This document shows, in pieces, positions 1,481-54,794 of a stretch of DNA of 64,000 nucleotides (the stretch's first letter is position 1; every line of letters starts with the position of its first letter). The notes under the pieces are model-generated. The model saw nothing but the letters and a program-made list of their open reading frames with translations, did not search any database and had not been told where the DNA came from. The position numbers and the translations under genes were made by a program. The DNA lies in NCBI GenBank assembly GCA_029817715.1, contig JARUPY010000473.1, forward strand, positions 7,502,001-7,566,000, read 5' to 3'. This DNA comes from Melastoma dodecandrum. Its lineage: Eukaryota > Streptophyta > Magnoliopsida > Myrtales > Melastomataceae.

Positions 1481-1499
1481 TAAAAGGAACCTTTGTTGA

Positions 1500-2290
1500 T
1501 ATCAAATTACCCTTGGTAGCACTGGTGTTCTTCCCAATTGCTACTTCGAATAAGCCTCGATATATGATACATAAGAGGAAAGGAGCCAGAGAGACATTTT
1601 CTTTCACCTTAACTAAGTAATTAGCCAGAGGGCACATCATCTTCAAATGTTGCTTCCCTCGACCACATAATATGAACTTCGATAGCCACACTATCAGAAA
1701 TTCGAACTCATCATCAGTCCATTCTTTAGAGTCCACTCTTATATGCTTAGCAATAATCTTCGGCGAAGACAGATTTGGAAGAGGGAAATCCTCATCTACT
1801 TCGACTAACCTGGGGAAAGCTCCTGACGCATAACACCCAGTAAGGAAGCTCACATCTGACAAGGTAATTGTCAAAGGACCTTCCGGTAGAAAGAAACAAT
1901 TGGTGTTGGTATCCCATAAAGAAAGCAGGGTAGCTAATGGGCGAGGATTGCAACACATTCATTCAATTGACAGCCTAATAATACTCACAATTCCCCATCG
2001 TCGCCTTCCTACGGACATTCAATCACTTTGCGAGCCCACTCATCATAACCCAAAGATGAACTAACTGTGGGGAAGCAGCACAGATTCTCCAACTAACTCG
2101 AACCCTTGGTCCAGTAGCAGGGATCCGTAAAATATGTCCTATGGATAGGTAAACCAGTAGAAGGATAGAGGTAATCATACTTCACCTTCTCCTTAATGAA
2201 GGTGGAAGACTGGAAAAATAGATCGACAGTTACTGCTAGTGGCGCCTGAGTGTCGTCCGTTATTTCGCTGTTCACCACGTCTGTCGTCAA
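1500..2290 (-). pseudogene. Remnant of the antisense plant mobile domain gene of element A
   Basis: On the minus strand this encodes the same protein family as the intact antisense gene at 50465-53634. Shared blocks in order are CNPR..LW, NCFFLPEGPLTITLSDVSFL, EFLIVWLSKFI, CPLANYL and SLAPFLLCIIYRGL. A more N-terminal block at 2093-2290 (YLYPSTGLPIHRTYFTDP) corresponds to the region just before WEGQGSF in the intact copy. Such domains are classed as PMD, or 'aminotransferase-like plant mobile domain', and occur in plant transposable elements and a few host genes. The frame is broken between the blocks, and the 3' exons (linker and coiled coil) are missing. Lying downstream of, and opposite to, a Tat-type pol fragment, it has the same arrangement as in element D. 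Confidence 0.78.
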
Positions 2291-19454: not shown

Positions 19455-20737
19455 CTAAAATTCCAGCACCGTCGTAGTGAGGTTGAGCAACGGTTCTAAC
19501 GTGCTTGCGGCGAACTTCCTTGCGAAGAGGTTGCAAATCGTTATATTCTCCGAGTTATATGAGCACGACGTCCCATTGTCCCTGATAGCTCGTATGAAAT
19601 CCTCATTGATGTCATCCTTCCTGAAGGTGGCCGGGTGTGGCCCGCCCAAGCTCCAGTCAACCCATGTGACTGTTCGGTTCGCGTTTTGTGGGCCATGGAA
19701 CATGTGGAGATACGTTGGGATGTAGTGCTCGTCCGGGTAGCAAGCGGGCTTGCAATATCGTCTGAAGAGGTCGTAATATAAGGCATCGGCGATGATATGT
19801 GTGGCGAGTTCCCTCTTGATCTCAAACCACTGTGAACCCTTTCGCCACTGGTGGAGGGAGATGTAAGGGAGCATGCTGCGGCTGTAACGACCCCGGCCAT
19901 ATCGGGTAGGATCATCGTATGACTCCACGAAGCTGTGGGCGGAGCTGGTGAGGTACTCGTAGATAATAGGGAAGTTGTAGACTGGTATGCAGCTCTCGGA
20001 CAGGAGGACGAACCGCTCGTTCGACTGGTCAAGGAGAGCGTTTGCGAGGAGGCGCCGCTCTGCATCAACCAGCTTCACTGAACCCCATTGAACGATCTTC
20101 CAAAAGGGGTTACCCGCTCAGTGAACTCAGAAAATATTACATGCGAATTGACATCCGTGATGTCCTTCCTCACCTGACTTGGTATGTGGCGGCCGTAAAA
20201 AGCAGACTCCTTCGACACCTTAAGATCGTACCCATGTGAGTGGATGTAAATGGAGTACAGATTCTTGTCCTGCCCCTCGAAGAACATCTCCCAAAGCGGC
20301 AGCATTGGCAATGGACCCCTCGTCAAGAACATGAAGGCGACCTTAGGGACCCTCTTGAAAGGGAACTCTGCCTTCCTCGGCACCATCGATGCCCTCCACA
20401 TGATCTCATCATCAGTCATCCTGTGGCTCAAGTTTTGAGGATGCAGGAACGTCTCCATGCTGAGGCAGTCCACCTTCACGCACTTCTTCTCGGTCTCAGC
20501 CCTGACCGTCTCCACGATCTCGGCGCAAAGGTCATCGGCCTGGGAAGGAGGGGCAGCAGAGACATAATTGTAGGAGAATAAGGGGGCGGCATACCGTGAA
20601 GTGAAGTGGGCATTCATGTGGGTGCTGGTGAGAAGACCGAGGATGACCCCGGCGGCGAACACGACGAGGAAGGAGAGAACTTGGACGAGCTTCAGGAGAT
20701 TGGCTTGCCTCCCCTCCAAATCATTCTTTCTCGACAT
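19455..20737 (-). pseudogene. GT14 (core-2/I-branching type, DUF266) glycosyltransferase with one frameshift
   Basis: Read from ATG at 20737 to the stop at 19455, the gene is about 427 codons, the usual size of plant DUF266/GT14 proteins such as the BC10 group. These are Golgi type II membrane proteins linked to cell-wall or arabinogalactan glycosylation. A short basic N-terminus is followed by one membrane anchor (about residues 14-36, LVQVLSFLVVFAAGVILGLL). The catalytic domain has VPKVAFMFLTRGPLPMLPLWEMFF, FVLLSESCIPVYNF, PDEHYIPTYLH and VTWVDWSLGGPHPATF, all strong family signatures. The frame breaks once, at the A4 run 20102-20105 (plus strand), where one base appears to be missing; both sides are otherwise clean. 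It may be a real recent mutation or a sequence error in a homopolymer. I typed it as a pseudogene only for that break. Confidence 0.85.
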
Positions 20738-20741
20738 GATC

Positions 20742-20777
20742 TCACCAATCCTCGTACAGGGAGGACTCCGCAAACAT
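20742..20777 (-). promoter_or_regulatory. 11-codon upstream ORF before the GT14 start
   Basis: An ATG at 20777 opens a different frame, encoding MFAESSLYEDW, and stops at TGA four bases before the main ATG (20737). Such uORFs can lower translation of the main frame. That it does so here is inference. Confidence 0.5.
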
Positions 20778-22262: not shown

Positions 22263-24790
22263 ATGCCTCGTGCTAGAGATGGAAGAAATCCTACGAAAGT
22301 TGACCCTAATAATAAAGGGAAAAACATCGAAAATCAGACTAGTGATATACAAGATATGCTTATAGGGCCTCAAAATAACCCCTGGCTTGTCTTCTTTCCT
22401 ATGGATTTCGTAATTAAACCTGAATTTAGCAACGCTATGAGAGAATTAAAAGTGGAGATTGTAGAAAGCCATAGAGCACTAAAAATGTGAATGGATGAAA
22501 AGCATCTAGAACTCATAGATATGATAAGTCTCCTTAGGAATGATAGATCCGAGAAAAAGAATGAGCCTTTAGGAGATAAATCATTCGTGGGAGACGCCAG
22601 GAAAGCTGCTGGAAAACATAAACTTAATGAAAATATTTATAAAGCGTATGCTGAATTGTATCATGTAAATTCTAATGGCGCGTTCGAAATTGGCGTGGGT
22701 AGTTAAAAAAATCCAATGCCTAAGCCTACCATGAATTTAAACTCTACATTTGTAGATTCCGAACATAATGTATGTCCAGCTTATTAATCTTTGTACCGAC
22801 GAAACCTTGAGAGTTTCTACTATAAACCTAGAAAAGACGAGAAAAATCCAAAGCTAGGGGTGGATCCCGATCTGAGTGGTTAGATTGCTTGAGTGGTAGC
22901 ACAAATGATCCTAGGTGCAAGGACTGAGGAGGTATGCTTGTCACGAGTCCAATTCCCGACTATATAGAGCGAGGGATAGAAATACCTCGAGGATACAGAA
23001 TTCCTGGCTTTACCTTATTCTTGGGGGACGTTGAAATGACTCATGTAGAACATATTGCTAGATTTACTCATCAGATGAGAGAAATGTCAAATGATGATAT
23101 GATTAAACTTCTCTCTAATTCATTAACGAGAGAGGCGTTTGGCTAGTACTCGAGACTTCCCCCAAATTCTATTTTAGGTTGGGTCGAGATGCAGACTCGA
23201 TTCCTCAAAGCTTTTGCTAAGTTAGACTCAGTAACCACTCTAGCAGAAATAATGAAAATGAAACAGCTGCTTGGGGAGAATCCTACTTTGTTTTTTAATA
23301 AAATTTAGAAGAAATTTGTTGAAGTGTACGACTACCTTAGCCGAGAGAGATCAACTCGAAATAGCAGAGAGCGCCTGTCACTAAAGATAAGGAAAAAAAA
23401 ATCCAAAGGGAGCGTTTTCGGGATTCATTATCTCTCGAGACGAGCAACTAAGTATCATAATTTCTTGTTAGAGCAGTTCCACTCGGTTAGGAATTGCCAA
23501 GTAGAATCTTGGGCGAAGTTGATGTAGTTGAGTCCATAAAAGGGGAACCGACAATATGTGGGCCTTTAGTAAAGAAAAATTATAAAGTTCAGGCTTCTCA
23601 AAAATGTAATGAAGAAAGAGAGTTCTTTTTGACATAGATTAGATGGACAAAATATTTGACTGGTTACACCAGAAAGGACGCATAAAACTTAGGCCTGAGT
23701 ATAAGTTGCCCAGAACGATCGAAAGATTGAAGGAAGTATTGTAAATGGCACGGAACTTTTACTCGTGCGAGTCAAGCATGTATGCACTTTAGAAATCTCA
23801 TTCAAGATTTGATCATGTCGAAAGAATCATGGTTTGCTGAAGTAAATAAGCCGAGTATTGTAGATGATAATCCCTTCGGTGAAGAACCAATAATACATAT
23901 ATATTATCTCGAGCATGAAAACAAGTGTGATGTTGATAATGATATTTCTGCATATTATCTCGAAATTAATGGTCATAATGTATCCCAGGGAGTTAAGGTG
24001 TCTGGAAAGACCACCATTACTAACAGGCATTTCAAACGCCTGGACGAGGGAGAAGTGGGCACTTGCCCAGTTCGAGAAATTCTTGATGGACATTGTCATT
24101 GCAATATGGACTCGACTCATACCACGGATAAGTGTCATAACTTCCGCAGATACTTGCAGATGAATAAAGGGAGTCCCTAATATGACTTTACCCAGTTCGA
24201 GGAGGTGGCAATGGTGCCATCATACTCCCGATGCTAGCTCCTCATCCGGATCCATTGGACATGAGCGCCGTCAGAGTCAATACGATGAGAGTGACAAGTT
24301 TAATAGGACCCGTGTAGCGAGCGTGTGAATGACTATGAGAAGTCTGGAATTGCTGCTTGAGAAAAGATGCCAGACAAGCACCCAAGGAAGGATACTCCCG
24401 TCATCGGTACTATGGAAGTCGCGAAAGCTCCTGTTCTATCTACAAAATGGGAAAGAGGTTTTTCAAATAAACCAAAAACTGATCCTGGAAGGCCCACATA
24501 TCACCCGGTTTCTTGAGAAAGGGATGCTATGTGAGAAGTGCAAGTGGATTGTCTCAAACAAGTTCCTCATTCCACAGATGTGCGCCAAGTACTGCGTGCT
24601 GTACTTCTTGAAGCTGGTTCAACTGTCAACCAATGAAGAAATTGAGATCAAACTCAAAAGTGAGGTTGCAGGTAATTTCATTACAAATCGCATTGATGTT
24701 GTTGTGCCTGAACCGAGCATGCAGGAGATTAGGGGCTATGACCCAGATAAAAAAGGACTTTGTTTACATGAAATGCCCTGTTAAAAATCT
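22263..24790 (+). pseudogene. Decayed gag of element C
   Basis: The ATG at 22263 opens MPRARDGRNPTKVDPN, but an in-frame stop comes at about 22488 and more breaks follow. In order I see the N-terminal region with DMISLLRNDRSEKKNE and then the pre-capsid block GYRIPGFTLFLGDVEMTHVEH (22990-23060). After these come the capsid remains (FLKAFAKLDSV) and the QFHSVRNCQVESWA linker near 23480. The last parts are a knuckle-like region ending HTTDKCHNFRRYL (24115-24160) and the Cys cluster MLCEKCKWIVSNKFLI..MCAKYC (24525-24600). The order matches B and D. Sequence stops matching at about 24790, before the protease, where an unrelated antisense integrase fragment begins. Confidence 0.8.
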
Positions 24791-24799
24791 CGAACAAAT

Positions 24800-25060
24800 T
24801 GTAGGAGAGCACCTTGCAAAGGACCAGCAAATCGGGTTGCAGAAGTGCGTCCCTTCGTCGCTTATGATAGCCCGTGGTGTGCCAAATCGGGTAAAAATCT
24901 GTTTTTTCAAAAACTTGCACACGACTTTAGAATCATTAGAAGGCAAAGCTACTGCTTCCACCCACTTTGAAAAATAATCAACAGCCATAAGGATGTACTT
25001 ATTATTGAAAGATGAAATAAAGGGACCCATAAAATCGATACCCCACACATCAATACCCAC
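24800..25060 (-). pseudogene. Integrase core fragment of an Athila-like Ty3/gypsy element
   Basis: The minus strand encodes [32 protein letters not shown] and, further on, [20 protein letters not shown]. These carry the first two Asp residues of the integrase DDE triad (D of GIDFMG, D of SDEGTHF). The rest of the core is cut off. The sequence differs from the Tat integrase of element D. It may be the displaced downstream part of the Athila-like element whose gag-RT lies at 27205-30030 on the same strand. Confidence 0.82.
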
Positions 25061-25084
25061 AAATTCCTATCAATACTCGTATGA

Positions 25085-26300
25085 CTAACCACATAAAGCA
25101 TCATTAGGGATACGAAATAACCCTACTTTCATACGAAAGAGCATTTGGCGTACCTCGGGAGTAATGTTATGTCGAGAAGAGCCAGCTGTAGCGTCTTTAG
25201 GAGGCGACTTTGCTACACCTAATGTCCCTTCTTCAATAGGTGACCTCACCAACATCAGTAGACTCCTTTGTCTCCGTCTCATCGGAGGGTGTTTTGTCCC
25301 GAGTTACGTCGACGTCCTCCAGGGGCGAAACATCTCGAGTCTCCGCCAAAAGAGCATCTCGAGTTGCTCTGACTCTATCCTCGAGAGGTGGAGATGTTTC
25401 TTGAGTTGCGGCCACCACAACATTCAAGTCGGCCTGTTTTACCGTCTCTTTTGAAGAATATGAAAGGAAAATAAACTTCAACAAAAGCGAACTTGGAAAG
25501 CAAGGATACCTCGTCATCTTGGACATGTGGTGTTCGAGAATCTTCTCCAAGACTTGTGATACATTCGGGAAGGGATGAGGTGGATACATTCGCCTCAGAA
25601 CTCCCGTCTAAGACTTCTGAGACTGTGGTTTTGCCTCTTTGGAAGAGGTGCTTCTTCATTGCCCGCTTCCTCGCTTTGTCGCCCTGATGGACGGTCTTCT
25701 CGAACTTTGGATCGTTCTTCTCTAAGGCTTTTTTCTTCAAGAAACCTCAGAGTCTGTATCTTGCATTTTTTTTCTTTGGCTCTAAGAGTTCTTGATTCGA
25801 GGTAGCCTCAGACGACTAAATTCCCAATTCAATTTTCATCATAGCTGCAAAATGAATAGATTTAAGTTAAGAGACGATCAATGGCATAAATATACGTCTT
25901 TAAGGGAAATTCTTATAGCTCATTCTCTAGGTCTGGACAGGTTCGTAGAGGTCATTCAAAGGAGCGTCTAAGTCAGCCATGAAGCCTCGCAGTTCAAACC
26001 ATGTCAGTCTAGTAAATTTGAAACAACTCGGAGGTAGAAACTCCACCACTCCTCGAGAAGGGAAATTCAATAGGAGATAGAGTAGCTCAAGACAGCACTT
26101 TGTGTACCTCCTTGAAAGGTATAGTTGCGATCTTCCCATGCATAATATTGTTGAAGATCTCGAGAATGGAACAGTGGTACCTTGGATGAAGCCAAATTGT
26201 CGAGCGCATAGTTGGGGATTGTACACTTCGAATTCAAACTTGTTTCCTCGACCAGCTCCCACCAAGTGTCAAGGTGTTAAAGCGCTATCCAAGTAAGACT
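25085..26300 (-). pseudogene. Remnant of the antisense plant mobile domain gene of element C
   Basis: The right part (25927-26265) encodes YNPQLCARQFGFIQGTTVPF, matching the intact antisense protein of element D (YNPQLCARQFGFIQGVAVPL), then FTRLTWFELRGFMADL, near the end of its first exon. To the left, 25230-25740 holds basic and acidic Ser/Thr-rich pieces (KKHLFQRGKTTVSEVLDGSSEA) comparable in style to the linker exons of D. The coiled-coil exon is not recognisable. Orientation is opposite to gag of element C, as in D. Frame breaks show that it is dead. Confidence 0.75.
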
Positions 26301-26579
26301 ACTCGATAAGGACACCATTCTGGCTCTCTCTTGGGATCAACGAGTTCATTCATCAGGAAAGACACAATCTTAAAGGACCGGGTGTTCGAGTTGCTGCACA
26401 CACGAAGGGCGAATAAAGTCCAAAGCACTTGCCCGTGAGCACTGACGTGTTAAAAGAAGTCAGTTAAGGAAACCAGATGTGTGCCCACAAGTACGATAGC
26501 CATATCGATCCCCAAACGGATAACTTGGAAAACCCATATCGATCCACAAGTACGATAACAGCCTCCATCTCCGCCACCA

Positions 26580-40439: not shown

Positions 40440-41908
40440 CTCTGGTTAGTCGCTGCATATCCCCACTCTCTCACACCCGAGATTTTTGGACACTCAACGG
40501 CTTCCCCACTCACCTCTCCTCCCCGAGATTTTTGGAACTAAAAGAAAATCTGGCCAACACACGATCCCCTTTGAGGAGCCCCTTTTATTCCCCACAGAAG
40601 CTGGGGGACTAAGGACAGAGAGGGAGAAAAGAGGTCTCACCTTTCGGAGGACTCACCAGGCTGGAGAGACCACCAGTCCCTGATCCGACCACTGCCGCGT
40701 CCCCATCACTCTCCAGCCAAAGGTGAGTCCATGCCAAGGACATGGAAATCCCTCCTTCGTCAGCCCAAACCCGGTTGCCGTCGATCACAACTGGAGACGG
40801 CCGCTGCAACAGCAAACATAATGGTCTTCAACTCCTCTGGATACGGCAACGGCGACCAATGGCGTCCGCTGTCTTGGCTGTTGAACACGAATAGGAATTT
40901 CCCAGCCGAATCTCGAACAGCCACCTCCCGCAGGCCATGGCCTCGCGGGAGGTTTCCTTTGCTAGTGATATTCCTCCTTTCATGTGCAGGTCATGAAGTC
41001 GGAGGCGAACAAGAAGGCTCCAAAGACAGCCGCAGCCGCAGGAAGATGTGATCGCAACCCCAAGGAGTCCAAGCGGCAAACCCGTCTCTCCGGCGCTTCC
41101 AGACAACCGGCAGCGGCGGATACCTCTTCTCCCTACATCTCCAGAACCAGTGGCAGCAACCCATCTTCGTGGCGTTTTCAGAACCCGCAGCGGCCAATAA
41201 ACCACTTTCTGGCCCCGACATCTTCTCCAGTAACGGTTGTCCCCAAGTCCAGCTACGACGGTCCATAAGTCCTCTCAGTCGTCCAGCAGCAGCGTTCCCA
41301 AGTCTTCCCATTTCCACAGCCCTTGAGCGTCCTCAGAACCGACGGCAACAATGCCCCGTCCTCCCGGCATTTCCCATAACCAACTCCCGGCAAACCCGCT
41401 TTCAGCAGTCATCCCTAGAGCCGACAACAACGACCAAAGCATTCTCCAACCTCCCCAAAGCTGGCACCGACGAACCAGCCTTCCCGACCTTCTCAAAACC
41501 AGCGGCAACGAGCGTACGCCACTCCCCGACGTCCTCAGATCCGACAGTGATGGATCCCTGTTCCCGATCATCCCGAAGCCAAAGCCTTCCCTCTCCCCTC
41601 CTCAGTCCTTTGGCTGACCTCGGCCACAGAAAACCTCCTGCTCGTATCAGCAAAGCAGCCACCGCTGCTCGACACTCCAGTGAAAAGACTTGCTCCCACG
41701 CCCTCCATGACGTCTCTTGATTTAACAGCAGCGGACGCTTGGATCTCATTGCAGCTTCTTTCAATCCCTGGCTGCAACAAGCAACAGTAAGACGTCAACG
41801 GGGGAGAAGCTCTTCGAACCCACGTCTTCTTCGACGACTTTAGATCACAGCCCCTCTCCCAACAATGACGGCGTCGTCCCCTGCTTCCAAGATCTCCCTC
41901 CGTAGACC
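40440..41908. other. C-rich target DNA left of element D
   Basis: GC-rich, pyrimidine-biased DNA with long but featureless Ser/Pro/Thr-rich frames on both strands (for example 41169-41720), as composition alone would give. A twice-used phrase, CCGAGATTTTTGGA, occurs near 40470 and 40530. Sequence continues after element D at 54795, so D landed inside this unit. It may be an old LTR or leader of another element; I cannot name it. Confidence 0.4.
41904..41908 (+). repeat. Target site duplication AGACC, left
   Basis: Identical to 54790-54794 directly after the 3' LTR; 5 bp is the normal Ty3/gypsy length. Confidence 0.9.
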
Positions 41909-42007
41909 TGTTGACATGGCAATTAATTTTGGGCCTGGGTTTAGAACAGAAACCCAGTAAACCCTCAAGTCATACTCCGAGTCAGCCCACGATACAGTTG
42001 TCTAGGC

Positions 42008-42108
42008 CGACTCATGACGAAGTCGACTAGGTCGACTCATGACAAAGTCGACTAGGTCGACTCATGACGAAGTCGACTAGGTCGACTTATGAACGGGGTC
42101 GACTAGGT
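42008..42108 (+). repeat. Tandem 25-bp repeats in U3 of element D
   Basis: Units of the form CGACTCATGACGAAGTCGACTAGGT at 42008, 42033 and 42058, followed by a 26-bp variant at 42083. The 3' LTR (53931-54006) has one unit fewer. Most units contain TGACG, the core of as-1 type bZIP (TGA factor) sites, and two GTCGAC-type words. A role as a transcriptional enhancer is inference. Confidence 0.85.
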
Positions 42109-42410
42109 CGACTCACAATGAAGGAGTATGGTGATCAAAGTCAACCAAGATGACTCAACAGTAGCTAGGCCTACTAGTAGGGCCAAGTCAACGGAATTCT
42201 GGATAAGTCGACCAAGTCGGTCGTAGTCTGTACAGTCAAGTCGACAGGGTTGGAATAAATTTATCACATTTGTTAAGGATCGTAACTGATCCTATTATCC
42301 AGGAACGTGATCCCAAAGATTAAGGAGGTTGTTCAAACACTCCCACGATGTTAGGGATCACGATCTGCAACACGATCTATCTGTTACGTGTTAAACACGT
42401 ACAAATCCTC

Positions 42411-42418
42411 TATAAATA
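42411..42418 (+). promoter_or_regulatory. TATA box of the sense promoter of element D
   Basis: TATAAATA in the context CTCTATAAATAGC, midway in the LTR and about 385 bp before AATAAA. It is the expected Pol II promoter for genomic RNA; the transcript should start about 30 bases downstream. Confidence 0.8.
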
Positions 42419-42897
42419 GCAAAGGAATATTTCAAGACAAAGGGTACGACCACACACAGCCAAAACACTGAAGTTTGTTCGTCAACTTTAGGAAATTAGA
42501 TACCTCGACCCGGTTTGTAGGTCAACCTCCCTCCGCCAGCAGAGTGAGCTCGCAGGGCCTTTGCCGTCAACCCCCTCCAGCGACACCACCGACGGAGTGA
42601 GCTCGTAGGGCCTTCGTCACAGCCTCCCGCCAGCGACCACCACCGACGGAGCGAGCTTCTAAGGCCTTTGTCACAAGTTCTTCACCGTCACGGATTTCCA
42701 CATCGTCATCAATACTTGCGCTCTTTTTCCATTTTTTAATGGCTGTAAGCCCTGTTTCCTTTATTCATTAAGATTGTAAGACTTGCATTTGATTTCAATA
42801 AAATTGTGCATCTTCTTACTGGCGACCACAATATAACTACCGTGAGTCCATTGCCAAATATTTCCAACGTGATCCGTTTCGTGCGTGAACACGTTTT

Positions 42898-42913
42898 TGG
42901 CGACCACAGTGGG
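42898..42913 (+). other. Primer binding site of element D (tRNA-Arg type)
   Basis: TGGCGACCACAGTGGG lies six bases after the LTR. It is complementary to a tRNA 3' end CCCACTGTGGTCG plus CCA, consistent with plant tRNA-Arg, and is the same site as in element B. Confidence 0.8.
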
Positions 42914-42918
42914 AGAAC

Positions 42919-45900
42919 ATGCCGAGAAATACTCGAAGTACCACTCAGAATCCCTTAGATGGGGAAAACCAGGAGCTTCCTCCGGGAATGAACTTGGAAG
43001 CGCCAGCCCTAGGAGGCCAGGCAGCTACGAACCAGTCCGCTTTTGATTCACATGCCCAAGCGCCAGCCCTAGGAGGCCAGGCAGCTACGAACCAGTCCGC
43101 TTTTGATTCACATGCCCCGTCTGAATTTATTTCGAGACTGGAGTTCCACAAGGAATTGGGGAGTGTGCGTCAGGATTTGACCGATATGAAGGGCATCCTA
43201 ATGGATGTCCAAACTCTAATAGGGCGTCTTTCTGGCCCGAGAGACGAGGAAAGAGTAAGACCTCGTATGAGAGAGACCCCATTTAGGGAGTCTATGTTCA
43301 TGGCAGACGCTCGTCGGACTACTCAAGGGCCACGTAACGTGACTTTTGAGCGATCCGACATAAGGACAAATACTCTATTCGAACCTGGGAATTTGGTTCC
43401 CCCTAGTCGACCCTCTTCTTCACGTAATCAACCGACGAATACGTATTGGAATGAGGCAGAGGACTTTCAAGAGGAAACGGATCTAGGGGAGAATTTTATT
43501 CCGTCTCATCGCCCTGGAAAAGAACCTGTAATCGACGCAACTGGAGACCCCTATGGGCTTGGATCCCGAGGTGGAAACTTTCGGGAAGAGCCTTCTTCCT
43601 ACACGAGGAATCCAGCGAGTCAGACAGTGGGGGAAAGATCTCCGTACAGCCCGATAAGGTCGACTCGACCTACAGCGCAGGCCCCAGTAGGCGGTGTACC
43701 CCCAGACCTGAGGGAGGCCATAACTCAGGTTATAGAGCAAGTCGTCCCCGGAATAGCTCGGCGAGACGACGCCTGTTTGTACAGGTCTCCCTATCCTACG
43801 TATGTCGACAGGGATTTCCCTTTACCTAGAGGTTATAAGGTGCCCGACTTTACACGTTTTTCGGGTGAAGATGAAATGACCCCACTCGAGCATGTCGCTC
43901 GCTTCACTCACCAACTTGGTGAGGCGGCTGGGAACGACTTTTGAAAACTGAAGCTCTTCCCTAACTCGTTAACAGGGGATGCCTTTACGTGGTATGCGAG
44001 TTTGCCGCCAGGGTCAATAGCCTCGTGGACTCAGATGCAATCTATGTTCGTTAAGACCTTTGCTCGACTGGACGCCCCCATGTCGATGTTTGAGGTAATG
44101 CGCCTTAAGCAGGCTAATGGAGAACACCCAGGGCAGTTTCTAATGAAACTCAGGAAGGCCCTACTACGGTGTAGCCCCCCCATACCGGAGAAGGATCAAT
44201 TACTTCTCGCATTAAATGCGTTGACTATTCCGTTCCGGAAAAAGCTGCAGGGCGAGCGCTTTGCTGACCTGTATGACTTAGCAAGGAGGGCCGCAGAGTA
44301 TTATCAGCTTCTTACAGAGGAAGCCCAGCTGACTCGAGCCTGCCAAGTCGACACTTATGAAGTCGACGTGGCGGAATTCGTCAAGGGGGAGTCGACTATA
44401 TGCGACCCCCTGGCTAAGAAAAATTCCAAAGCTAGGGCATCCCAAAAGAATGCCGAAGAAAGAAAATATTCTTTCGACACAGATAAAGTCGACGCTATAT
44501 TCGACTGGCTTCATCAAAGGAAAAGGATTAGGCTTAAGCCCGGCCATCGAGTTCCCCAGACAGAGAGGGAAAAGAATAGGAATTACTGCAAGTGGCATGG
44601 GTCTTTCACCCATGCTACCAAGGACTGTTTGTCCTTTAGAAATATCATACAGGATTTAATAGAGTCTAAAGAGCTCCGTTTTCCTGAAGTTGACGAAGTC
44701 GCCGTGGTGGATAATAATCCATTCGGGGATGAAGTCGCTATTCATACGTTTGACATATTTGACGCTGAGGTTAATCTCTTAGAAGTTATTAACGACTCTG
44801 TTGTACCCTCGCAGGACGTACAAGCAACCGGCGAGACTTTGGTGGCCAATGCCCTCATGAAGCGACTAGCTGAGCGTGGGGTCTTCATTCTGCCCAAAGG
44901 AAGGGAGAAGTGGCTATGCCACTAGCACTTGAACGACACTCACACTACGGATCGGTGCCACACGTTCAAGAAGTATCTACTGGACAGCAAAACGGAGGAG
45001 TGGTACGACTTGACCCCGTTCGAAGAAGCAGCAATGTCACTCAATACTCCCCAAGGATCTTCTCACGCCTTCAAAAGCCCTCCTAGCGCAGATCGCCGAT
45101 TAGCCTCGCGAGGTGGAAGAGGAGGCCCCCAGGGTCACAAGGGCAATGGAGAGGCAGTCGCCCGGGGAACAGAACGCCCGGCACGGCGACTGGAGTTCAT
45201 AGACTCGTCTGGTCAAAGGGTCATCAAACAGGGGTACACTAGAACTACCCCTGTCAAGGAGATCAAGCCGGTAGCGGAACACAAGGGAGAGGACCAACCT
45301 CAGCAGGCCATGAATCGCAGACCCCGTTATGCGTCGCAGACAGTCGATCCTCAGGAACTACGGAGGGGGCCACCCATCGCCCAATTCCTAGACGAAAAGC
45401 TGCTGTGCCAAAAGTGCAAGCTGATCGCTCACAACCGCATACTCATTACCCAGCTCTGCACAGCATGCTGCGTTAGCTACTTCTTGCGGCTCGTCGACTT
45501 ATCCGCAAAAGGGGAGATGCTCGTGAAGGCAGCCCGTCCTGAGGGCTCAGGTAACTCGAACCTTAACAAGCCCTCGAATAGGCCAGCAGATAACCCTGTG
45601 CAGGTAGGATATGACCCAGCCGACGGAAGGTTTGTGGAGGTGAGTCGACTTCCCTTTGGTTCTAAGAAACCAAGATTTGTCAAAGCGCCTAACCCTTCGT
45701 CTCAATGGCAGAAGGCGGAAAGAAAGATTACGCTTCCCGTGAGGGCTCAAAAGAGAAAAGAAAGGCGTCTAAGTCACGCCCAGAAAAAGCCAAGAATGAC
45801 CCCTGTGATGCCATCCTTTGGCGGGAACCACGCCACAGGGAAACAAGTCGCAGAGCCCGAGCGGGTCGAGTCTACTGATTACTCGGAAGACCCAGGCTCG

Positions 45901-46884
45901 AGTTTCGACTACACTCCTCTACAAGGAGATAAGCCCTGCGACTTCGATGCAGAGCAACGGCCCCTCGTGGGCTGTAACGTTCTTACCCTCCCTGCGGAGT
46001 TCGCCTGCAACAACAAGCCAGAGGCACCGGAAGGTAAAACTCTCGACTCTAGAGTCACTACATTTCCTTCTGGCTTCCCTCTGCACTGGTTGAGGAAACC
46101 ATCAGATCGTATGAAACAGCATATGCATTCGCTGTATATCTCAGCCACCTTTGATGGTGTCTTAGTGGGTCGAGTCTTAATAGACAATGGCGCCACTGTC
46201 AATGTTCTTCCCCTCGCCAAGTTTAGATTACTTGGGTACAAGCCTAGCGAGTTGGTGCGAACCGACGTAGCTGTAAGTGGCTTCAATGGGAGAAAATCCG
46301 AGTGCCTGGGTATATGCTCCGTGCGCCTAGGCGTCGGGAGACACGAGCAGGAAACTGCTTTCTTTGTAATCGATATAGCCCCTTCATTTAATGCGCTTTT
46401 AGGACGCGATTGGCTTCATAAGGCCGCCGCGATTCCATCTACTTTGCATAGGGAGTTAATCCTATGGCTTGACTCCGAAATAGAAATCGTTAAGGCTGAT
46501 GAATACTTCTGTTGTGACAAGGGTATTTTGCATGCAGAGACGTGTAAGACAGTCAAGGACCTTACTCTGGACCAGCGCTACAAGCTGGGAGACCCCACAG
46601 TCGGACCCTTAGGTGAACCTTCAGGGAAGTTCGACTTCATCGTGAGCTATGGCACCTCTCACCCCAAGCCTGACGAAGGACCGATTGTGCCAACAGGATG
46701 GGGGCCCGACTTCACAGACAAAGACATAGACGAGGTCCTGCAGAAGGTAGTCACGACTAAAGATGGAGGCGAAACGAACAACAGCCCAAACGACGACCAG
46801 GGAGAAGCGCCTAAGAGCCAAGAGAGCACTGCGACGGAGTTGGAGCCCGATAGACTCCTGCATGAAGGGATGTATGGACAGTGA
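42919..46884 (+). pseudogene. gag-protease of element D with two in-frame stops
   Basis: One frame of 1322 codons from ATG 42919 to TGA 46884, interrupted by TGA at 43942-43944 (in the capsid, before KLKLFPNSLTGDAF) and TAG at 44923-44925 (after the first knuckle). Both could arise by C-to-T change of methylated cytosine. Blocks are: an N-terminal region with a duplicated 20-residue segment; capsid at about residues 340-470 (FTWYASLPPGSIASW, FVKTFARLDAPM); a CCHC-like knuckle YCKWHGSFTHATKDC starting at Cys557; and a C-X2-C-X13-C-X2-C-C cluster near residue 830 (LLCQKCKLIAHNRILI..LCTACC). Last comes the retropepsin, with Asp1089 in DNGATVNVLP and GRDWLHKAAAIPS. Gag forms the particle; the protease cuts the precursor. 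The end overlaps pol by 122 bases in the +1 frame. Confidence 0.9.
43001..43120 (+). repeat. 60-bp in-frame tandem duplication in gag
   Basis: CGCCAGCCCTAGGAGGCCAG begins both 43001-43060 and 43061-43120. The two copies are identical except at the last bases. They encode a repeated segment (APALGGQAATNQSAFDSHA). The frame is kept. Confidence 0.95.
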
Positions 46885-49800
46885 GGAGAAAGGTCATGCA
46901 GTCGCTGATATCCTACAGCGACTTCAGAAGCATGTTAGGACGACTAGGAAAGTAGGATGCCAGATAGGCAACGTCGATTTCGAAATTAGGCCATGTAATA
47001 ACGTGGACACCAATTTAGGTGGTGTCCAGAGTCGTGAGTCACTGATGATGCCATGTGACTCACTCGTAGGTGTCAATTTCGGCGAGGCATCGAGCCCTCG
47101 AATTGTTTTTATCAGTTCCTCGATGAATAAAGAACTTTTCCATTCTATCAAAGCTACTCTAGAAGAGTTTAAAGATTGTTTCGCTTGGGATTACACTGAG
47201 ATGCCTGGCCTAGATCGCCGACTTGTGGAACACAAGTTACCAATCAAAACAGGATTTAAACCAGTCCAACAGGCGCCGAGGAGAATGACTCATGAAGTCA
47301 CTCAAGCAGTATTTGAGGAAGTTAAAAAGCTCTTTAAAGCCGGATATATAAGGACATCGAGGTACACCGAATGGATATCCAGTATAGTTCCTGTCATTAA
47401 AAAGAATGGTAAGATTAGGGTTTGCATCGACTTTAGAGACTTGAATCGTGCCACTCCAAAAGATGAGTACCCTATGCCCATCGCAGATGATTTAGTCGAC
47501 AAGACTGCAGGGCACCAAATTATGTCCTTCATGGATGGTTTCTCAGGATATAACCAAATCTTCCTAGCCGAAGAGGATATCCATAAAACTGCGTTCAGAT
47601 GTCCCTTAGGCATTTTCGAATGGGTAGTCATGCCATTCGGACTCAAAAACGCTGGGGCAACCTACCAACGGGCCATGAACGCTATATTTGATGCCTTAAT
47701 TAGCAAAACGGTCGAAGTATACATAGACGATATAGTAGTCAAGTCGCGAGATGGGAAGTCGCATGTTAATGACCTTAAAAATGCTTTCATTCAAATGAGA
47801 ACGCATCAACTCAAATTAAACCCTCTCAAATGTGCCTTCGGAGTCAGAGCAGGACATTTCCTAGGGTTCCTAGTTCATCAACGTGGTATAGAAGTCGACC
47901 AGAACAAAGTGAACGCCATTCAAAGATTGAACCCTCCGAGTAATAAGAAGCAGTTACAGGCTTTCTTAGGAAGGGTCAATTATCTAAGGCGATTTATTGG
48001 TAACGTCGCTGGACGGACAGAAGTTTTCTCGACCTTACTAAAGGCAAAGGGAAATTTTGTGTGGAGCGACAAACACCAAAAAGCATTTGAAGGCTTAAAG
48101 GAGTACTTAATGAAACCGCCTGTGCTTGCCCCTCCTCGGATAGGAAAGCCTTATCTGCTTTACGTGGCAGCGACCGAATCAGTCATCGGTGCCATGTTAG
48201 CCCAAGAGACAGAGGACAAAACTGAGAGAGCAGTCTACTATCTGTCAAGACAACTAACTGCTACAGAAAAGCGCTATACAATTAAGGAGAAGTTATGCCT
48301 GTCAGTTTTTTATGCTGTTAAGAAGCTGAGACATTATATCGGATCCCAAGAGGTTCATGTTATTGCCAAGTCCCCAGTCATAAAATACTTTTTCGAAAGT
48401 CCCCTATTGACCGGAAGAATTAGTAAATGGAGCTTGGTCCTATCCGCATACGATCTGCGTTTCAAACCTCAACAGTCGGTGAAAGGGCAGGCCTTAGCCG
48501 ATTTCTTAGTGAACCACGATCCATCTACATCAATCGATCAAGAGGACTTCCTTGAGAATGTCTGGCAAGCTTGGTTTGATGGATCTTCGGCGAAATCCGG
48601 CGTAGGCATAGGCCTCCACGTACTTTCGCCACTAGGAAAGGACGTTCGCCTAGCATATCGTCTGTCGGCAACTCATACAAACAATGCGACTGAGTACGAA
48701 GCGTTGATCACGCTCTTGAAGGAGTTATTAGCCTTGGGAGCCAGGAAAGCCAGAGTAATGGGAGACTCTCAACTGGTTATTAACCAGATGAACGGCGACT
48801 CTCTATGTCAAGAGAAACTCGCACCCTATCATCAAGTCGCTCGAAGGCTAGTCGAGCGATTCGAAGTAATTACTTTCCTTTTTGTAGGCCGGGAGGAAAA
48901 CACAATCGCTAACGACCTAGCCCAAAAGGCTTCAGGATACAAGGCCAAAAGGGGAAGCGATTGTATCCCAGAAATAGCTTCCCACTTAGCTCCCCAAGGC
49001 GACGCGTTCACTCTGAATATAATGACAAGCGATAAAGATTGGAGGAGACCAATCACCGACTTCCTCTCTGACCCAACACAAAAGGCGAGCCAAAGAATCA
49101 AGACTCAGGCTTTGTCGTACACTCTTATAGATGGGGTACTTTACAGAAAGACCAAAGAAGGAGTCCTACTAAGATGCGTCGATTTAGACGAAGCGACCCC
49201 AATTATGTTGGAGACTCATCAGGGTTTATGCGGGTCTCACCAATCTGGCACCAAAATGTCTTGGACTATCCAAAGACATGGTTTTTACTGGCCATCAATG
49301 CTAAAGAATTGCATAGAAATGGCTAGGGGGTGCCAAGAGTGTCAAAAACATGGTCCGGTGACAAGGGCCCCAGCGTCCGATTTAGTCTCAGTCATCAAGT
49401 CTTGGCCGTTTAGGTCTTGGGCTTTAGATATAATCGGGGAGATTCACCCACACTTGAGTAAAGGCGATGCCTACATTCTAGTCGCTACTGACTACTTTAC
49501 CAAGTGGGTCGAGGCTCAAGTATACCGGAAAATTGATCACAAAGAGGTGATCGATTTTCTCAGATCCTCCATCATTTATAGATTTGGGATTCCCCAGAAT
49601 ATCGTAGTAGATAATGGCACCGTTTTCAATAATGAGAAGGTGCGTGAATTCGCTGCTGAATTTAGCTTTTCAATCACTAATTCGACACCTTATTACCCCC
49701 AGTCGAATGGACAAGCTGAAGCTACTAATAAGCTCATAAAGAATAACATTCAGAAAATGGTTGGTGCAAATCCAAGAAAATGGCACGAACTATTACAGGA

Positions 49801-50332
49801 CACCTTGTGGGCTCTAAGAGTCACCAAGAGAGACAGCACAGGAGAAGCCCCTTTTTCGCTGGTATATGGGCAAGATGCTGTCCTACCTATTGAGATTCGA
49901 TACAAGTCGCTCCGGGTAGCTCATCCTGACTTGCAAGACGAGGCAATGTACCTCGCTTTAGAAGAATTGGAGAAAAAGCGACTCGACGTAATAGACCGAC
50001 TTGAGGTACATAAGCAAAGAATTGCTAGATACTATAATAAAAAGGTTGTCCATAAGCGCTTCAAAGTGGGCGACTTGGTATGGAAGATGATCCTACCCCT
50101 TAAATCAAAAGACCAAGTCTTGGGTAAGTGGTCTCCTAATTGGGAAGGTCCATATGAAGTGTGCGAGACATACTCATCTAATACGTATCGACTTATGACC
50201 AGAGAAGGAGATAGGCATCCATTGAAGGTCAATGGTAAATATCTTAAATCCTACTGCGCGACTATCTGGGAAGCTCATCATAAAATCCTAAGACAAAGGA
50301 CTCCATTAATTTGGGAAGCGCTTAATTCCTAA
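46763..50332 (+). CDS. pol of element D: RT, RNase H, archaeal-type RNase H, integrase
   Basis: The frame is open for 1189 codons; numbering here is from the first ATG in it, which is probably not the true start because translation most likely enters from gag-PR. RT occupies about residues 170-380 (TSRYTEWISSIVPVIKK, CIDFRDLNRATPKDE, FMDGFSGYNQIF, and YIDD at 320-323). The first RNase H follows to about 590 (HYIGSQ.., KPQQSVKGQALADFLV). A second, archaeal-type RNase H covers 600-735 (AWFDGSSAKSGVG with Asp606, ATEYEAL, MGDSQLVINQM, EENTIANDLA); this is the mark of the Tat group. The integrase has an HHCC finger (His819 to Cys860) and the DDE triad Asp889, Asp950, Glu986 with 35 residues between the last two. 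The C-terminus has GDLVWKMILPL and KWSPNWEGPYEV. No stop or frameshift was seen, and all catalytic residues are present. Confidence 0.95.
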   Translation: MEAKRTTAQTTTREKRLRAKRALRRSWSPIDSCMKGCMDSEEKGHAVADILQRLQKHVRTTRKVGCQIGNVDFEIRPCNNVDTNLGGVQSRESLMMPCDSLVGVNFGEASSPRIVFISSSMNKELFHSIKATLEEFKDCFAWDYTEMPGLDRRLVEHKLPIKTGFKPVQQAPRRMTHEVTQAVFEEVKKLFKAGYIRTSRYTEWISSIVPVIKKNGKIRVCIDFRDLNRATPKDEYPMPIADDLVDKTAGHQIMSFMDGFSGYNQIFLAEEDIHKTAFRCPLGIFEWVVMPFGLKNAGATYQRAMNAIFDALISKTVEVYIDDIVVKSRDGKSHVNDLKNAFIQMRTHQLKLNPLKCAFGVRAGHFLGFLVHQRGIEVDQNKVNAIQRLNPPSNKKQLQAFLGRVNYLRRFIGNVAGRTEVFSTLLKAKGNFVWSDKHQKAFEGLKEYLMKPPVLAPPRIGKPYLLYVAATESVIGAMLAQETEDKTERAVYYLSRQLTATEKRYTIKEKLCLSVFYAVKKLRHYIGSQEVHVIAKSPVIKYFFESPLLTGRISKWSLVLSAYDLRFKPQQSVKGQALADFLVNHDPSTSIDQEDFLENVWQAWFDGSSAKSGVGIGLHVLSPLGKDVRLAYRLSATHTNNATEYEALITLLKELLALGARKARVMGDSQLVINQMNGDSLCQEKLAPYHQVARRLVERFEVITFLFVGREENTIANDLAQKASGYKAKRGSDCIPEIASHLAPQGDAFTLNIMTSDKDWRRPITDFLSDPTQKASQRIKTQALSYTLIDGVLYRKTKEGVLLRCVDLDEATPIMLETHQGLCGSHQSGTKMSWTIQRHGFYWPSMLKNCIEMARGCQECQKHGPVTRAPASDLVSVIKSWPFRSWALDIIGEIHPHLSKGDAYILVATDYFTKWVEAQVYRKIDHKEVIDFLRSSIIYRFGIPQNIVVDNGTVFNNEKVREFAAEFSFSITNSTPYYPQSNGQAEATNKLIKNNIQKMVGANPRKWHELLQDTLWALRVTKRDSTGEAPFSLVYGQDAVLPIEIRYKSLRVAHPDLQDEAMYLALEELEKKRLDVIDRLEVHKQRIARYYNKKVVHKRFKVGDLVWKMILPLKSKDQVLGKWSPNWEGPYEVCETYSSNTYRLMTREGDRHPLKVNGKYLKSYCATIWEAHHKILRQRTPLIWEALNS

Positions 50333-50464: not shown

Positions 50465-53400
50465 TTACAAGTCTAGACTCCATAACCCGCCAACTTCTCT
50501 AAAATCGAGGACAAGGGATTTACGAGCTCGTCGCTGGACATTGTTCACCTTGTTTCGCTGGGCATAAAGGTCGACGACCTTTTCTCTATCCTTCTCAGCA
50601 TTGGCCTCCAGCTCCTCGATTTCTTGAGTATTGATCGACGCAAGCTGCCGAGTCAGGTCATTCTTCAGGTTCGTATAGAACTCTATCTGTCTCTCTGTCT
50701 CGGTCAGCTTCTCTTGCACATCGACCAAATGTTGGCGGGCGTCCTGTGCAGCTTTAGAGGCCTGCCCTCGAGCATCATTGATCGACCGAATCTTCGAGTC
50801 GGTCAAGTCGTAGGCGAGCAGGTCGGCGTAGTAATCCTTCCAGCGAGTCCAATACGTCGACCTAAAGCTCTTGCAGGCCCCCAGTATTTCGTCCGTCACC
50901 CGAGGGGATGCCTCGATCTCCTTCAACAGCTTCTGCATCTTCTCAAACTCGTCGACGCTTAAGGGGTCAATGAGCAGAAGTCGGCAGAATTCGTCAATGT
51001 CCTGATGAAGCTTCACCCATGGGTCGACAGTCGAGGTCGCTGCAGCAGGAGCCTGCAGAATAAGAAATGAAATGTTGCTAAGACACAATGTCCCAAACAG
51101 TCAACACCTCCATGCAATCCAATACTTACCTCTGAACGTAGTAAATCCTCAGAACTTTCGCCTGAAGAAGTGGAGGGAGTAGGAGCCTTCTTGCGACCAG
51201 CAGTCGTCTTCACTCTCTTCGGGCGAGCCTGTGAAGTGTCACGGTTAGAATCGTGATAACAACGCCATACTTTGTGAGAAAGAAGAACACATACCATTGG
51301 TGGTGCAGGAGTGGGGGCTGAAGAAGAAGGGACGCCTTGTTCTTCCTCCTCTCGCATCGGCTGAGGTAGTGCCCCCTCCTGCGTCGACCGAGTTGAAGGA
51401 TCGACTGAAACCATAGCGGTCCCTTCTTGTAGCAAGGCTTCAGGAGCCTGCTCTTCCTAGAGTGGAGTGTAATAAAACTAAAGTTCATGTATGAACTAGG
51501 GTAATATATCCTAGCAGGGAGTCGAGCTCACCTCGGCGGTCGAAGCCGTTGCACCCGTCTCGAACGCAACCAGAGTAGGCTGGTCACCACCTCCGGTTGA
51601 CGCTTCGCCCTAGGCAATATAGTGCGGGTTAGATACAGAAGCTCAGGATGAATTAGAACCAGTAAAGTCATACCTCTGTAGCCGCTCCTCGAGCGACATC
51701 GACCGTCGCTAAGGTCACAGGTACAATAGCAGATGATGAGCTCACTGGGGCCACCGCTGTTGGTGACCTCGAAGAAGAAGTCGCCGCTACGGTAGTCGGC
51801 GACTTGGGAAGAGGAGCCGCCACTGAAGCTGGTACCTTCACCAATCTCCTCCTCTGGGATAGAGACATCTCCTCAAGATCTCCTTTCTCGGCCGCCTTGC
51901 GCTTTGGAGCAGCCTTAGGTCGAGCCTTAGCAGGGTCACCTGCGGTTGTTTCCCTGGAGCTCGCCACCTTAGCTTTCCCCTTGCCAGTCGACTTGAGTCT
52001 AGAAGGAGCGGGGGCAAGGGGAGCCTTAGGCTTTCCAGAGCCCTGAGGCATCATTGATCCTGAAAAGGAGAAAGCTCACGATTAATACTAAGAACCCAAT
52101 ACTCTTAAAGTAAAGCTAAGCCTTTACCTCTCGCTTTGATATGTGCGTCGCCCATGTAAAAGTCAGGTTCCTTGGAGACCTCCAAGAAATGCATCAAAGC
52201 CCGCAGCTCTTCATAAGTAGTCGACCACAGCACAGTGAAGAATTGCGTGGCGAAACAGGCAGAAGTACTAGATGGGAATTCTATCTGGGAGAGCTGCGCC
52301 TTGCTGTTGAGCAAGTCGAGGGTCTTCGGGGAGATCGGCTTGCACGAAATCCTCTTCATCCTATCCCCGCACAAGCCACCGGTAGGGTCAGCAAGTGGAA
52401 CCGCTACGCCCTGGATGAACCCAAACTGCCTTGCACACAGCTGAGGGTTATAGGCTTCAAAGGTCAGGTAGCCGTCGAAGATGACTGGTAGGTCCCTGCG
52501 GGTCAATACCCCATTCCAGAAGCCACGAGCAGCTTGGAGCTTAATTTCCTGAGCAAATGTCTTGCCACCTGGAAAGGGTGCCCAGTTGCGTCGATCTGCC
52601 CTGCCGAAGTCGACGATGTGCTTCATGTGGCCAGTGACCGATGTCATAAGCCATTGATCCTTCCGCTGGCAGCACTGCTCCAAGATGGTCTCCCCATAAT
52701 AGGCCGACTCGAGGGGCGAAGCAGGGCCCTTGAACCCAGTCAATCCTGGCATCCACATAGCTGACCAAAGGTGAACTAACCAAAGCAATCCTCCTGCTGG
52801 ATGTTTTGGAAACGGCTTGATCTGAGTCGTCGCTCTGTCCAGATCATGGTAAAGAAGACCCAAAATGAAGGGGGCCCAAGAGATTTCTTCATTGGTCTCC
52901 CTCAGAAAGTTGGCCACTGGATAAGAAGTGTGGCTGACCTTCTTCCCTGGGAAGCAATAGACAAACTTGCTTAACCAAGTGCTGAGAAACTCGACCTCTT
53001 CCCGGGCGCCAAAGCACTCGGTCGACAACTTCTCATCTGGCTCTTTGCCTGCTGAGGCCATTTTCAAATGCCTGCTTACCACCTCCATGTACTGAAGGGC
53101 GCCCTTCGGATTAATATCGCCTGCCAGGGAGTATTGGCGAACAGGGAGGCTATTGACTTTGCACCTGGCCAAAATCTTCACATCTGCCAAGGTAATAGAC
53201 ATGGGACCCTCCGGGAAATAGAAGCAATTGACTGAGGAGTTCCAGAAAGGCAGCATAGCCGAGCAGACTCTAGGATCACAGTTCTTGTCTGCCACGGACA
53301 TCCTAAAGAACCTCAGAATTTTCTGACTCCTAAACCTCTCTGTGAAGTGCTCCTCCCACATCTCGAGCCATTCCACCATCTCAGATTTAGACGAAGAAGG

Positions 53401-53634
53401 AAAACACAGGAAGGATCCCTGACCTTCCCAGTTGAGGGGATCGACGAAGTTGGGATGGCAGATCGGGATGGGCTTCTCGGTGACGAGATAGTTGAGCGGC
53501 ACTGTCCCCGGGAAGAGACGCTCCGGCAGGATGGGTCCGAGGGTGACGCCCGATCCCTGATCCTCTATGACCGGAATGGGTCCGGTTGGCCCCGCACGCT
53601 GATTATGGACCTCGAAAGCCTGGAAAGTCGACAT
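50465..53634 (-). CDS. Intact six-exon antisense gene: plant mobile domain plus coiled-coil protein
   Basis: Exons (plus coordinates): 53634-52128, 52059-51674, 51609-51532, 51456-51295, 51228-51130, 51052-50465. The five introns are 68, 64, 75, 66 and 77 bp, all GT...AG. The first is phase 1 and the others phase 0, and the joined frame has 939 codons and no stop. Exon 1 (about 502 aa) is the plant mobile domain: MWEEHFTERFRSQKILRFFR, FYFPEGPMSITLADVKIL, VEFLSTWLSKFVYC, YPVANFL, WAPFILGLLYHDLD, GLLWLVHLWSAMW and YNPQLCARQFGFIQG. Exons 2-5 form a Pro/Ser/Thr/Ala-rich basic linker with possible nuclear signals (PKRKAAEKG, RPKRVKTTAGRKK). Exon 6 (195 aa) is a predicted coiled coil (VQEKLTETERQIEFYTNLKN, EELEANAEKDREKVV). 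The function is unknown; PMD proteins are linked to transposons and silencing. The open frame extends 61 codons upstream of ATG 53634, but that part would lie around the TATA box. Confidence 0.85.
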
Positions 53635-53769
53635 CTTTTTAAGGATCGGAAGAGTGTTAAGGAGGAAGACGAAGAGTTTTCCGGGAAGCGAGGGTTTTCT
53701 AGTTTCTTGGAGAAGATGAAGAAGTGTTGAGCAAGGAAGAAAAGTGCGGGAAAAGGACGATGACTCTCC

Positions 53770-53777
53770 TTTATATA
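53770..53777 (-). promoter_or_regulatory. TATA box of the antisense gene
   Basis: On the minus strand CCCTATATAAAGGAG stands 136 bp before ATG 53634. The stretch between is a CT-rich, ATG-free leader (CTTCCTTGCTC, CTTCTTCATCTTCTCC). It lies 55 bp from the 3' LTR, so U3 with its 25-bp repeats is upstream DNA for this promoter. Position and context are good for a plant core promoter; activity is untested. Confidence 0.7.
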
Positions 53778-53817: not shown

Positions 53818-53827
53818 AAAAGGGGGG
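53818..53827 (+). other. Polypurine tract of element D
   Basis: AAAAGGGGGG followed by CTTA and the LTR start TGTTGAC; the plus-strand primer for reverse transcription. Confidence 0.88.
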
Positions 53828-53831
53828 CTTA

Positions 53832-54789
53832 TGTTGACATGGCAATTAATTTTGGGCCTGGGTTTAGAACAGAAACCCAGTAATCCCTCAAGTCATACTC
53901 CGAGTCAGCCCAAGATACAGTTGTCTAGGCCGACTCATGACGAAGTCGACTAGGTCGACTCATGACGAAGTCGACTAGGTCGACTTATGAACGGGGTCGA
54001 CTAGGTCGACTCACAATGAAGGAGTATGGTGATCAAAGTCAACCAAGATGACTCAACAGTAGCTAGGCCTACTAGTAGGGCCAAGTCAACGGAATTCTGG
54101 ATAAGTCGACCAAGTCGGTCGTAGTCTGTACAGTCAAGTCGACAGGGTTGGAATAAATTTATCACATTTGTTAAGGATCGTAACTGATCCTATTATCCAG
54201 GAACGTGATCCCAAAGATCAAGGAGGTTGTTCAAACACTCCCACGATGTTAGGGATCACGATCTGCAACACGATCTATCTGTTACGTGTTAAACACGTAC
54301 AAATCCTCTATAAATAGCAAAGGAATATTTCAAGACAAAGGGTACGACCACACACAGCCAAAACACTGAAGTTTGTTCGTCAACTTTAGGAAATTAGATA
54401 CCTCGACCCGGTTTGTAGGTCAACCTCCCTCCGCCAGCAGAGTGAGCTCGCAGGGCCTTTGCCGTCAACCCCCTCCAGCGACACCACCGACGGAGTGAGC
54501 TCGTAGGGCCTTCGTCACAGCCTCCCGCCAGCGACCACCACCGACGGAGCGAGCTTCTAAGGCCTTTGTCACAAGTTCTTCATCGTCACGGATTTCCACA
54601 TCGTCATCAATACTTGCGCTCTTTTTCCATTTTTTAATGGCTGTAAGCCCTGTTTCCTTTATTCATTAAGATTGTAAGACTTGCATTTGATTTCAATAAA
54701 ATTGTGCATCTTCTTACTGGCGACCACAATATAACTACCGTGAGTCCTTTGCCAAATATTTCCAACGTGATCCGTTTCGTGCGTGAACA
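53832..54789 (+). repeat. 3' LTR of element D (958 bp)
   Basis: Collinear with 41909-42891; differs by five substitutions and by lack of one 25-bp unit. The TATA box is at 54309-54316 and the primer-core copy TGGCGACCACA at 54718-54728. Confidence 0.95.
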
Positions 54790-54794
54790 AGACC
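54790..54794 (+). repeat. Target site duplication AGACC, right
   Basis: Matches 41904-41908. Confidence 0.9.

Follow-up and report, generated by a model that had tools for sequence, protein, structure and literature searches.

A conserved five-intron plant mobile domain gene antisense to gag-pol in a Tat-type retrotransposon of Melastoma dodecandrum

The locus described here raises the question of how a gene interrupted by five introns can be carried in an element that multiplies through an RNA copy, and whether such a frame belongs to the element, to the host, or is no gene at all. In the window, as the whole analysed stretch of 64,000 nucleotides is called here, the minus strand of positions 50465-53634 reads as six exons and five GT-AG introns of 64-77 bp giving 939 codons and a stop opposite to pol, as the preliminary description had proposed. 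Exon 1 (52128-53634, with the ATG at 53634) is followed by intron 1 (52060-52127, 68 bp), exon 2 (51674-52059), intron 2 (51610-51673, 64 bp), exon 3 (51532-51609, 78 bp, phase 0-0), intron 3 (51457-51531, 75 bp), exon 4 (51295-51456), intron 4 (51229-51294, 66 bp), exon 5 (51130-51228), intron 5 (51053-51129, 77 bp) and exon 6 (50465-51052; 195 aa and the stop), all on the minus strand, and the phases of introns 1-5 are 1, 0, 0, 0 and 0. The boundaries follow from the spliced frame, together with the copy alignment for all introns and for exons 1 and 4-6, the genome matches for exon 1, related proteins for intron 4 and exon 5, and an AlphaFold2 model for exon 6. Upstream of the start, on the same strand, lies the TATA box TATATAAAGG (53768-53777), which starts at 53777.

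The gene fills the interval between pol and the 3′ LTR of a Ty3/Gypsy LTR retrotransposon of Tat type. The 5′ LTR (41909-42891, plus strand, 983 bp; defined by self-alignment and TG...CA ends) is closely followed by the primer-binding site TGGCGACCACAGTGGGAG (42898-42915, plus strand), which is assigned by position and is putatively complementary to the 3′ end of a plant tRNA-Arg. The gag-protease frame (42892-46881, plus strand; Pfam Retrotrans_gag and Asp_protease_2 in the listed frame) has two in-frame stops in the window copy, at 43942-43944 and 44923-44925, and near its start there is a perfect 60-bp tandem duplication (42998-43117). The pol frame (46751-50332, plus strand) is open for 1193 aa and encodes, according to Pfam, RT, RNase H, a second RNase H-like domain and integrase (RT_RNaseH 465-567, RVT_3 636-727, H2C2/rve 814-983); it stands tail to tail with the antisense gene, with 132 bases between them. 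A polypurine tract, AAAAGGGGGG (53818-53827, plus strand), precedes the 3′ LTR (53832-54789, plus strand, 958 bp by self-alignment), which lies directly upstream of the antisense promoter and carries 3.5 copies of a 25-bp GTCGAC-rich repeat (53925-54013) at 148-236 bp upstream of the antisense TATA box. The five bases AGACC occur on both flanks (41904-41908 and 54790-54794), and the element thus combines two LTRs, a 5-bp target-site duplication, a primer-binding site, a polypurine tract and an RT placed before the integrase, as LTR retrotransposons with the Ty3/Gypsy order of domains do. It is also young, as had been claimed: 5 of the 958 aligned bases are mismatched between its LTRs, which further differ by one 25-bp repeat-unit indel, and at assumed LTR substitution rates of 7e-9 to 1.3e-8 per site per year this divergence dates the insertion to approximately 0.2-0.37 million years ago. 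The second RNase H domain between RNase H and integrase is the Ogre/Retand arrangement (Neumann et al. 2019, PMC6317226), and by this domain order the element is assigned to the Ogre/Retand group of the Tat clade. Elsewhere in the window, a Core-2/I-branching enzyme gene (19458-20776, minus strand, PF02485) is found in two overlapping frames and is likely to belong to the host, with an intron or a frameshift interrupting it.

The first point to settle is whether the frame could have arisen by chance or as an artefact of the gene model. Models built without RNA can err, and intron 4 is optional in the window, where avoidance of stops requires only introns 1, 2, 3 and 5 and intron 4 can be retained in frame. 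All five introns are present in every copy aligned. Intron 4, although dispensable for the window frame itself, is backed by relatives, being left out of the annotated Melastoma proteins P0001 and P0012, and its retention would introduce a stop in three of the 24 open copies. Under a chance model that allowed up to five GT[AG]..[CT]AG introns of 60-80 bp in first-order Markov sequence of the region after exon 1, none of 300 simulations gave the required 1373 coding bases, the largest reaching 605, in agreement with the expectation that random sequence would not give such a set of phased introns, intron 4 being unneeded for the frame. The introns are GC-poor (mean GC 0.39; 20,000 random draws of five equally long windows included none as low), and a simple consensus count places all five donors within the best 11 of the strand's 158 GT sites. 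With codon usage trained on pol, the proposed frame outscores both alternative frames of its own strand in all six exons, and a frame of the opposite strand scores above it in exons 3 and 5. An Rfam search gave no matches.

Copies in the same genome carry the argument further. The 373-Mb assembly holds at least 85 exon-1 matches that span all 503 query residues (85 of 2365 candidates scored), and 75 of these 85 are free of internal stops. A non-random set was fetched, namely the 20 copies with the best scores, taken at 8.2 kb, and a further ten, taken at 3.5 kb, from a group of about 93-95%; the 3′-truncated L009 was dropped from the alignment counts, leaving 29 copies and the window as 30 rows. 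Every row has all five introns, with GT at 150 of 150 donors and AG at 148 of 150 acceptors, and the ATG start and the TAA stop are likewise kept in 30 of 30. The TATA box named in the preliminary description is conserved as well, as TATATAAA in 26 of the 30 rows, CATATAAA in three and TATATAGA in one. The spliced frame is open from end to end in 24 rows and broken in six, a share that is an upper estimate, since the sample favours the best-scoring copies. Of the indel runs counted per copy, 66 of 68 in exons and 2 of 17 in introns have a length divisible by three; for distinct events the figures are 14 of 16 and 1 of 9, respectively (Fisher p=3.4e-4). Even the most diverged copy, L033, in which the introns differ from the window by 27% and exon 3 by 46%, keeps every junction and an open frame of 945 residues. 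The copies are mosaic between subfamilies, as would result from template switching: L013 is 1.3% apart from the window in exon 1 and 5.5% in exons 5-6, where it differs from L030 by 0.8%.

The dN/dS among copies, for which a value near 1, combined with a lack of junction reads in any tissue, had been named beforehand as refuting the gene, is well below that value. Comparisons were made between the window and 11 of the 23 intact non-window copies, with the six broken copies left out, and they are non-independent because the copies are related. The nine diverged copies give 0.23-0.32 with upper 95% bounds of at most 0.44, the two close copies 0.275 (0.11-0.58) and 0.425 (0.17-1.14), and four pairs without the window 0.30-0.32. 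By part, the nine diverged copies give 0.05-0.17 in exon 1, 0.38-0.63 in exons 2-5 and 0.31-0.68 in exon 6, the last value coming from one pair. Judged from these ratios, constraint on exons 2-5 is weak, and a value of 1.33 there in one close copy stems from very few changes. The corresponding figures for pol are 0.13-0.45 (10 copies with an open frame of equal length); an open pol frame over the compared span was counted in 10 of the 20 long loci, or 11 if a copy with a 12-base gap is included, and an open antisense gene in 14, so that by these sequence counts the antisense gene is preserved about as well as pol. The low dN/dS, the kept splice sites and the frame-keeping indels together indicate a selected gene of the element, and chance is refuted at the level of the frame by the simulations and by conservation in the copies, which makes an accidental frame or a faulty model hardly conceivable. 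We conclude that the locus is very probably a selected, spliced, protein-coding gene of the element, antisense to gag-pol, and the earlier judgement that this is a gene and not an accidental frame is upheld.

Whether the whole frame is normally translated is a separate matter. Three protein searches (7, 11 and 2 rows) found 12 Melastoma candidum clusters representing 33 sequences and no matches outside this species, with a 5-residue word filter that probably hides distant relatives. The 918-aa P0001 joins all parts of the gene at 77% identity and full query coverage; its joints at introns 1, 4 and 5 are the same as in the window gene, and exon 3 is absent from it, as also from P0011. Identity to P0001 is 449/502 in exon 1, 107/174 in exons 2-4 and 188/227 in exons 5-6 (chi-square p=8e-16). 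The C-terminal half is carried by just three of the 12 annotated models, and the ends of four are those expected from reading on into intron 2 or 3. Were intron 2 retained in the window, the protein would end after residue 632 (...ATEV), and with intron 3 retained after residue 663 (...VSSTPC); the model ends are ...AAEV in P0003 and P0005, ...TAEVWL in P0007 and ...VSSTPC in P0002. P0011 and P0012 have the C-terminal half and lack a complete mobile domain. These models would suit a main product consisting of the mobile domain and linker, with introns 2 or 3 usually retained and the C-terminal exons serving a minor isoform or a second gene. The short annotated models may however be cuts made by the gene finder, and as RNA-seq, homology and Augustus all contributed to the annotation of M. 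candidum (PMC9911893), they may or may not rest on reads. Moreover, all five introns occur in 30 of 30 rows with conserved lengths and splice sites despite intron indels that are mostly not multiples of three, exon 6 has a dN/dS of 0.24-0.68 across all 11 comparisons, and P0001 joins all parts, which leaves the short main product unlikely against the full-length spliced gene.

The protein encoded by the full spliced gene contains a plant mobile domain (PMD) at residues 110-413 (52396-53307, minus strand; PF10536, E=9.2e-24), scoring 84.7 bits against a curated cut-off of 34.9, so that the search of PMD families suggested earlier returned the anticipated domain. The basic linker that had been described with it is encoded largely in exon 2, is rich in Ala, Ser and Pro and has NLS-like basic clusters at 555, 572, 715 and 723, as detected with a motif pattern of our own making. 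The expected coiled coil is upheld in part: the AlphaFold2 model of exon 6 has short helices together with a single long one spanning its residues 54-194 (mean pLDDT 79.5, pTM 0.38, from a four-sequence alignment), whereas a heptad heuristic for coiled coils did no better on the antisense protein than on shuffles, 351 of 500 of which reached its score. The exon 1 model, covering the PMD and based on 11 sequences, had no usable fold (mean pLDDT 33.6), a search of solved structures gave a single match at chance level (E=0.91), and among viral contigs none of 171 pattern matches was confirmed.

The preliminary description had called the gene host-like, and this part of it does not hold. Most PMDs are TE-associated and the plant PMD genes are domesticated ones (Ikeda et al. 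2020, PMC7156037), while Gypsy-borne PMDs form their own clades in the published trees, where Gypsy-only PMD-A clades span the angiosperms (Ikeda et al. 2017, PMC5418596). Gene orientation relative to pol was established on the 20 long fetched copies, and in all of them, belonging to several subfamilies, pol lies on the opposite strand, an LTR adjoins the gene start and the gene fills the pol-3′ LTR interval, one gene being 3′-truncated. Host-like identity was rejected on these trees and this location. The gene could in principle still have been captured from the host or have come with an intron-bearing transposon inserted in reverse, as a recent passenger, since multi-exon genes are typical of hosts and the same genome has MULE-type loci in which a PMD and a neighbouring SWIM-finger ORF share a strand. 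Such a capture is very improbable in view of the constant location in 20 of 20 long loci, the breadth of the Gypsy-only clades (PMC5418596) and an older Tat relic at window positions 15-2003, in which a minus-strand PMD fragment, 33-35% identical to the PMD of the antisense gene, comes after plus-strand pieces of protease and RT; an antisense PMD after RT in this relic implies that the arrangement predates the present family. Another Tat relic at 22931-26532 has gag-protease on the plus strand and a PMD piece on the minus strand at 26128-26244.

Other PMD loci were also seen in the genome, which has at least 139 PMD matches of several families. One near-complete open frame of 759 aa on C233 has the best score among them and may be a host PMD gene. 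The MULE-like L039 and L040 have a SWIM zinc-finger ORF followed by a PMD on the same strand, which is interrupted at profile position 238 by an intron-like gap of about 90 bp.

How the element could express and keep such a gene can be outlined as follows. RNA polymerase II would start at the TATA box that lies immediately internal to the 3′ LTR, whose 25-bp repeats would act as an upstream element and proposed shared enhancer; the antisense transcript would head toward pol, its five short introns would be removed, and a protein of about 100 kDa with a PMD, a basic linker and a long helix would be made and enter the nucleus. On the genomic-RNA strand the introns read as CT..AC, so that they would not be spliced there and every new copy would inherit them at reverse transcription. 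In our explanation it is this antisense orientation that lets a five-intron gene survive an RNA life cycle, and rows with intron loss number 0 of 30. The transcript might alternatively act as RNA, pairing with the genomic RNA and feeding small-RNA silencing or damping the element, with the protein as a by-product; regulation by dsRNA has been raised by Vicient and Casacuberta 2020 (PMC7264820), and PMD genes yield phasiRNAs in tea (PMC10673657). An RNA would however not need the observed selection on codons and frame, and the introns would lower its pairing with the genomic RNA, which makes this role rather improbable beside that of a selected coding gene. For the selected coding gene, analogy to deltaretroviral antisense proteins, which are spliced, and to the PMD silencing factors suggests that the product may be a trans-acting nuclear regulator of element chromatin or transcription, perhaps in competition with host PMD proteins. 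We give the nuclear accessory regulator about an even chance, and the conjunction of a selected spliced element gene with that role is likewise finely balanced; action against host PMD silencing is a tentative and rather doubtful extension. More speculative still, and unlikely as a whole, is the idea that antisense placement is a selected means by which a retrotransposon can have a regulated gene with introns. Splicing or retention at the five introns would then give long and short nuclear PMD proteins set against the silencing factors of the host that carry a PMD, and the sense RNA would pass the introns on, unspliced, to each new copy.

No function is known for the antisense accessory ORFs found in plant Tat elements. 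If antisense placement is indeed such a selected means, intron-bearing accessory genes would be expected to lie antisense across plant LTR elements, and single-ORF surveys, which we suggest cut such genes into fragments, would have missed most of their coding content. The window gene also offers a simple rule: an element copied through RNA can keep introns on its antisense strand and nowhere else. Since the family numbers at least 85 copies of exon 1 in this genome, with a constant set of five introns and measured purifying selection, the question can be tested with existing RNA data, such as the M. candidum reads SRR22574044-SRR22574048 (PMC9911893), and a search for antisense spliced transcripts is what Vicient and Casacuberta ask for (PMC7264820).

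Several known systems share some of these features. First, the extra ORFs of Tat/Ogre Ty3-Gypsy elements resemble the window gene in that a Gypsy element encodes a PMD, which 57% of the Ogre elements in the survey of Neumann et al. 2019 carry (PMC6317226); as described there, the ORFs were obtained with getorf at 250 codons or more without joining exons, whereas in the window gene five conserved introns and the C-terminal long-helix part are resolved. Next, the Retand aORF with Transposase_28 (Vicient 2025, PMC11963269) is also antisense, although the 939-aa protein has no match to Transposase_28 (PF04195) at E<=1, and the aORFs are single ORFs from ORF Finder in a paper whose available text contains neither the word intron nor PMD. 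The gene23 of maize Grande is similarly antisense with its own upstream promoter and is described as encoding a nuclear protein (PMC7264820), while the window protein is nuclear by prediction and the likeness is one of description. The HBZ and APH-2/3/4 of HTLV are antisense, start from the 3′ LTR, are spliced and are mostly nuclear regulators (PMC10186651), but HBZ is a bZIP protein and as far as known unrelated to the PMD protein, and the HTLV system has one spliced antisense intron in contrast to the five predicted in the window gene. Finally, the host proteins MAIN and MAIL1, which silence TEs, share the plant mobile domain with the window protein (PMC7156037, PMC5418596), yet they are products of host genes of the PMD-C clade, whereas the window gene is element-borne and has an extra C-terminal part; an anti-silencing use of captured PMDs by MULEs has been put forward as a speculation by Ikeda et al. 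(PMC5418596). A paper describing introns in antisense accessory genes was not found in the open-licence literature. Antisense accessory genes and PMD ORFs are already known, and the new detail added by the window gene is a conserved and intact five-intron structure.
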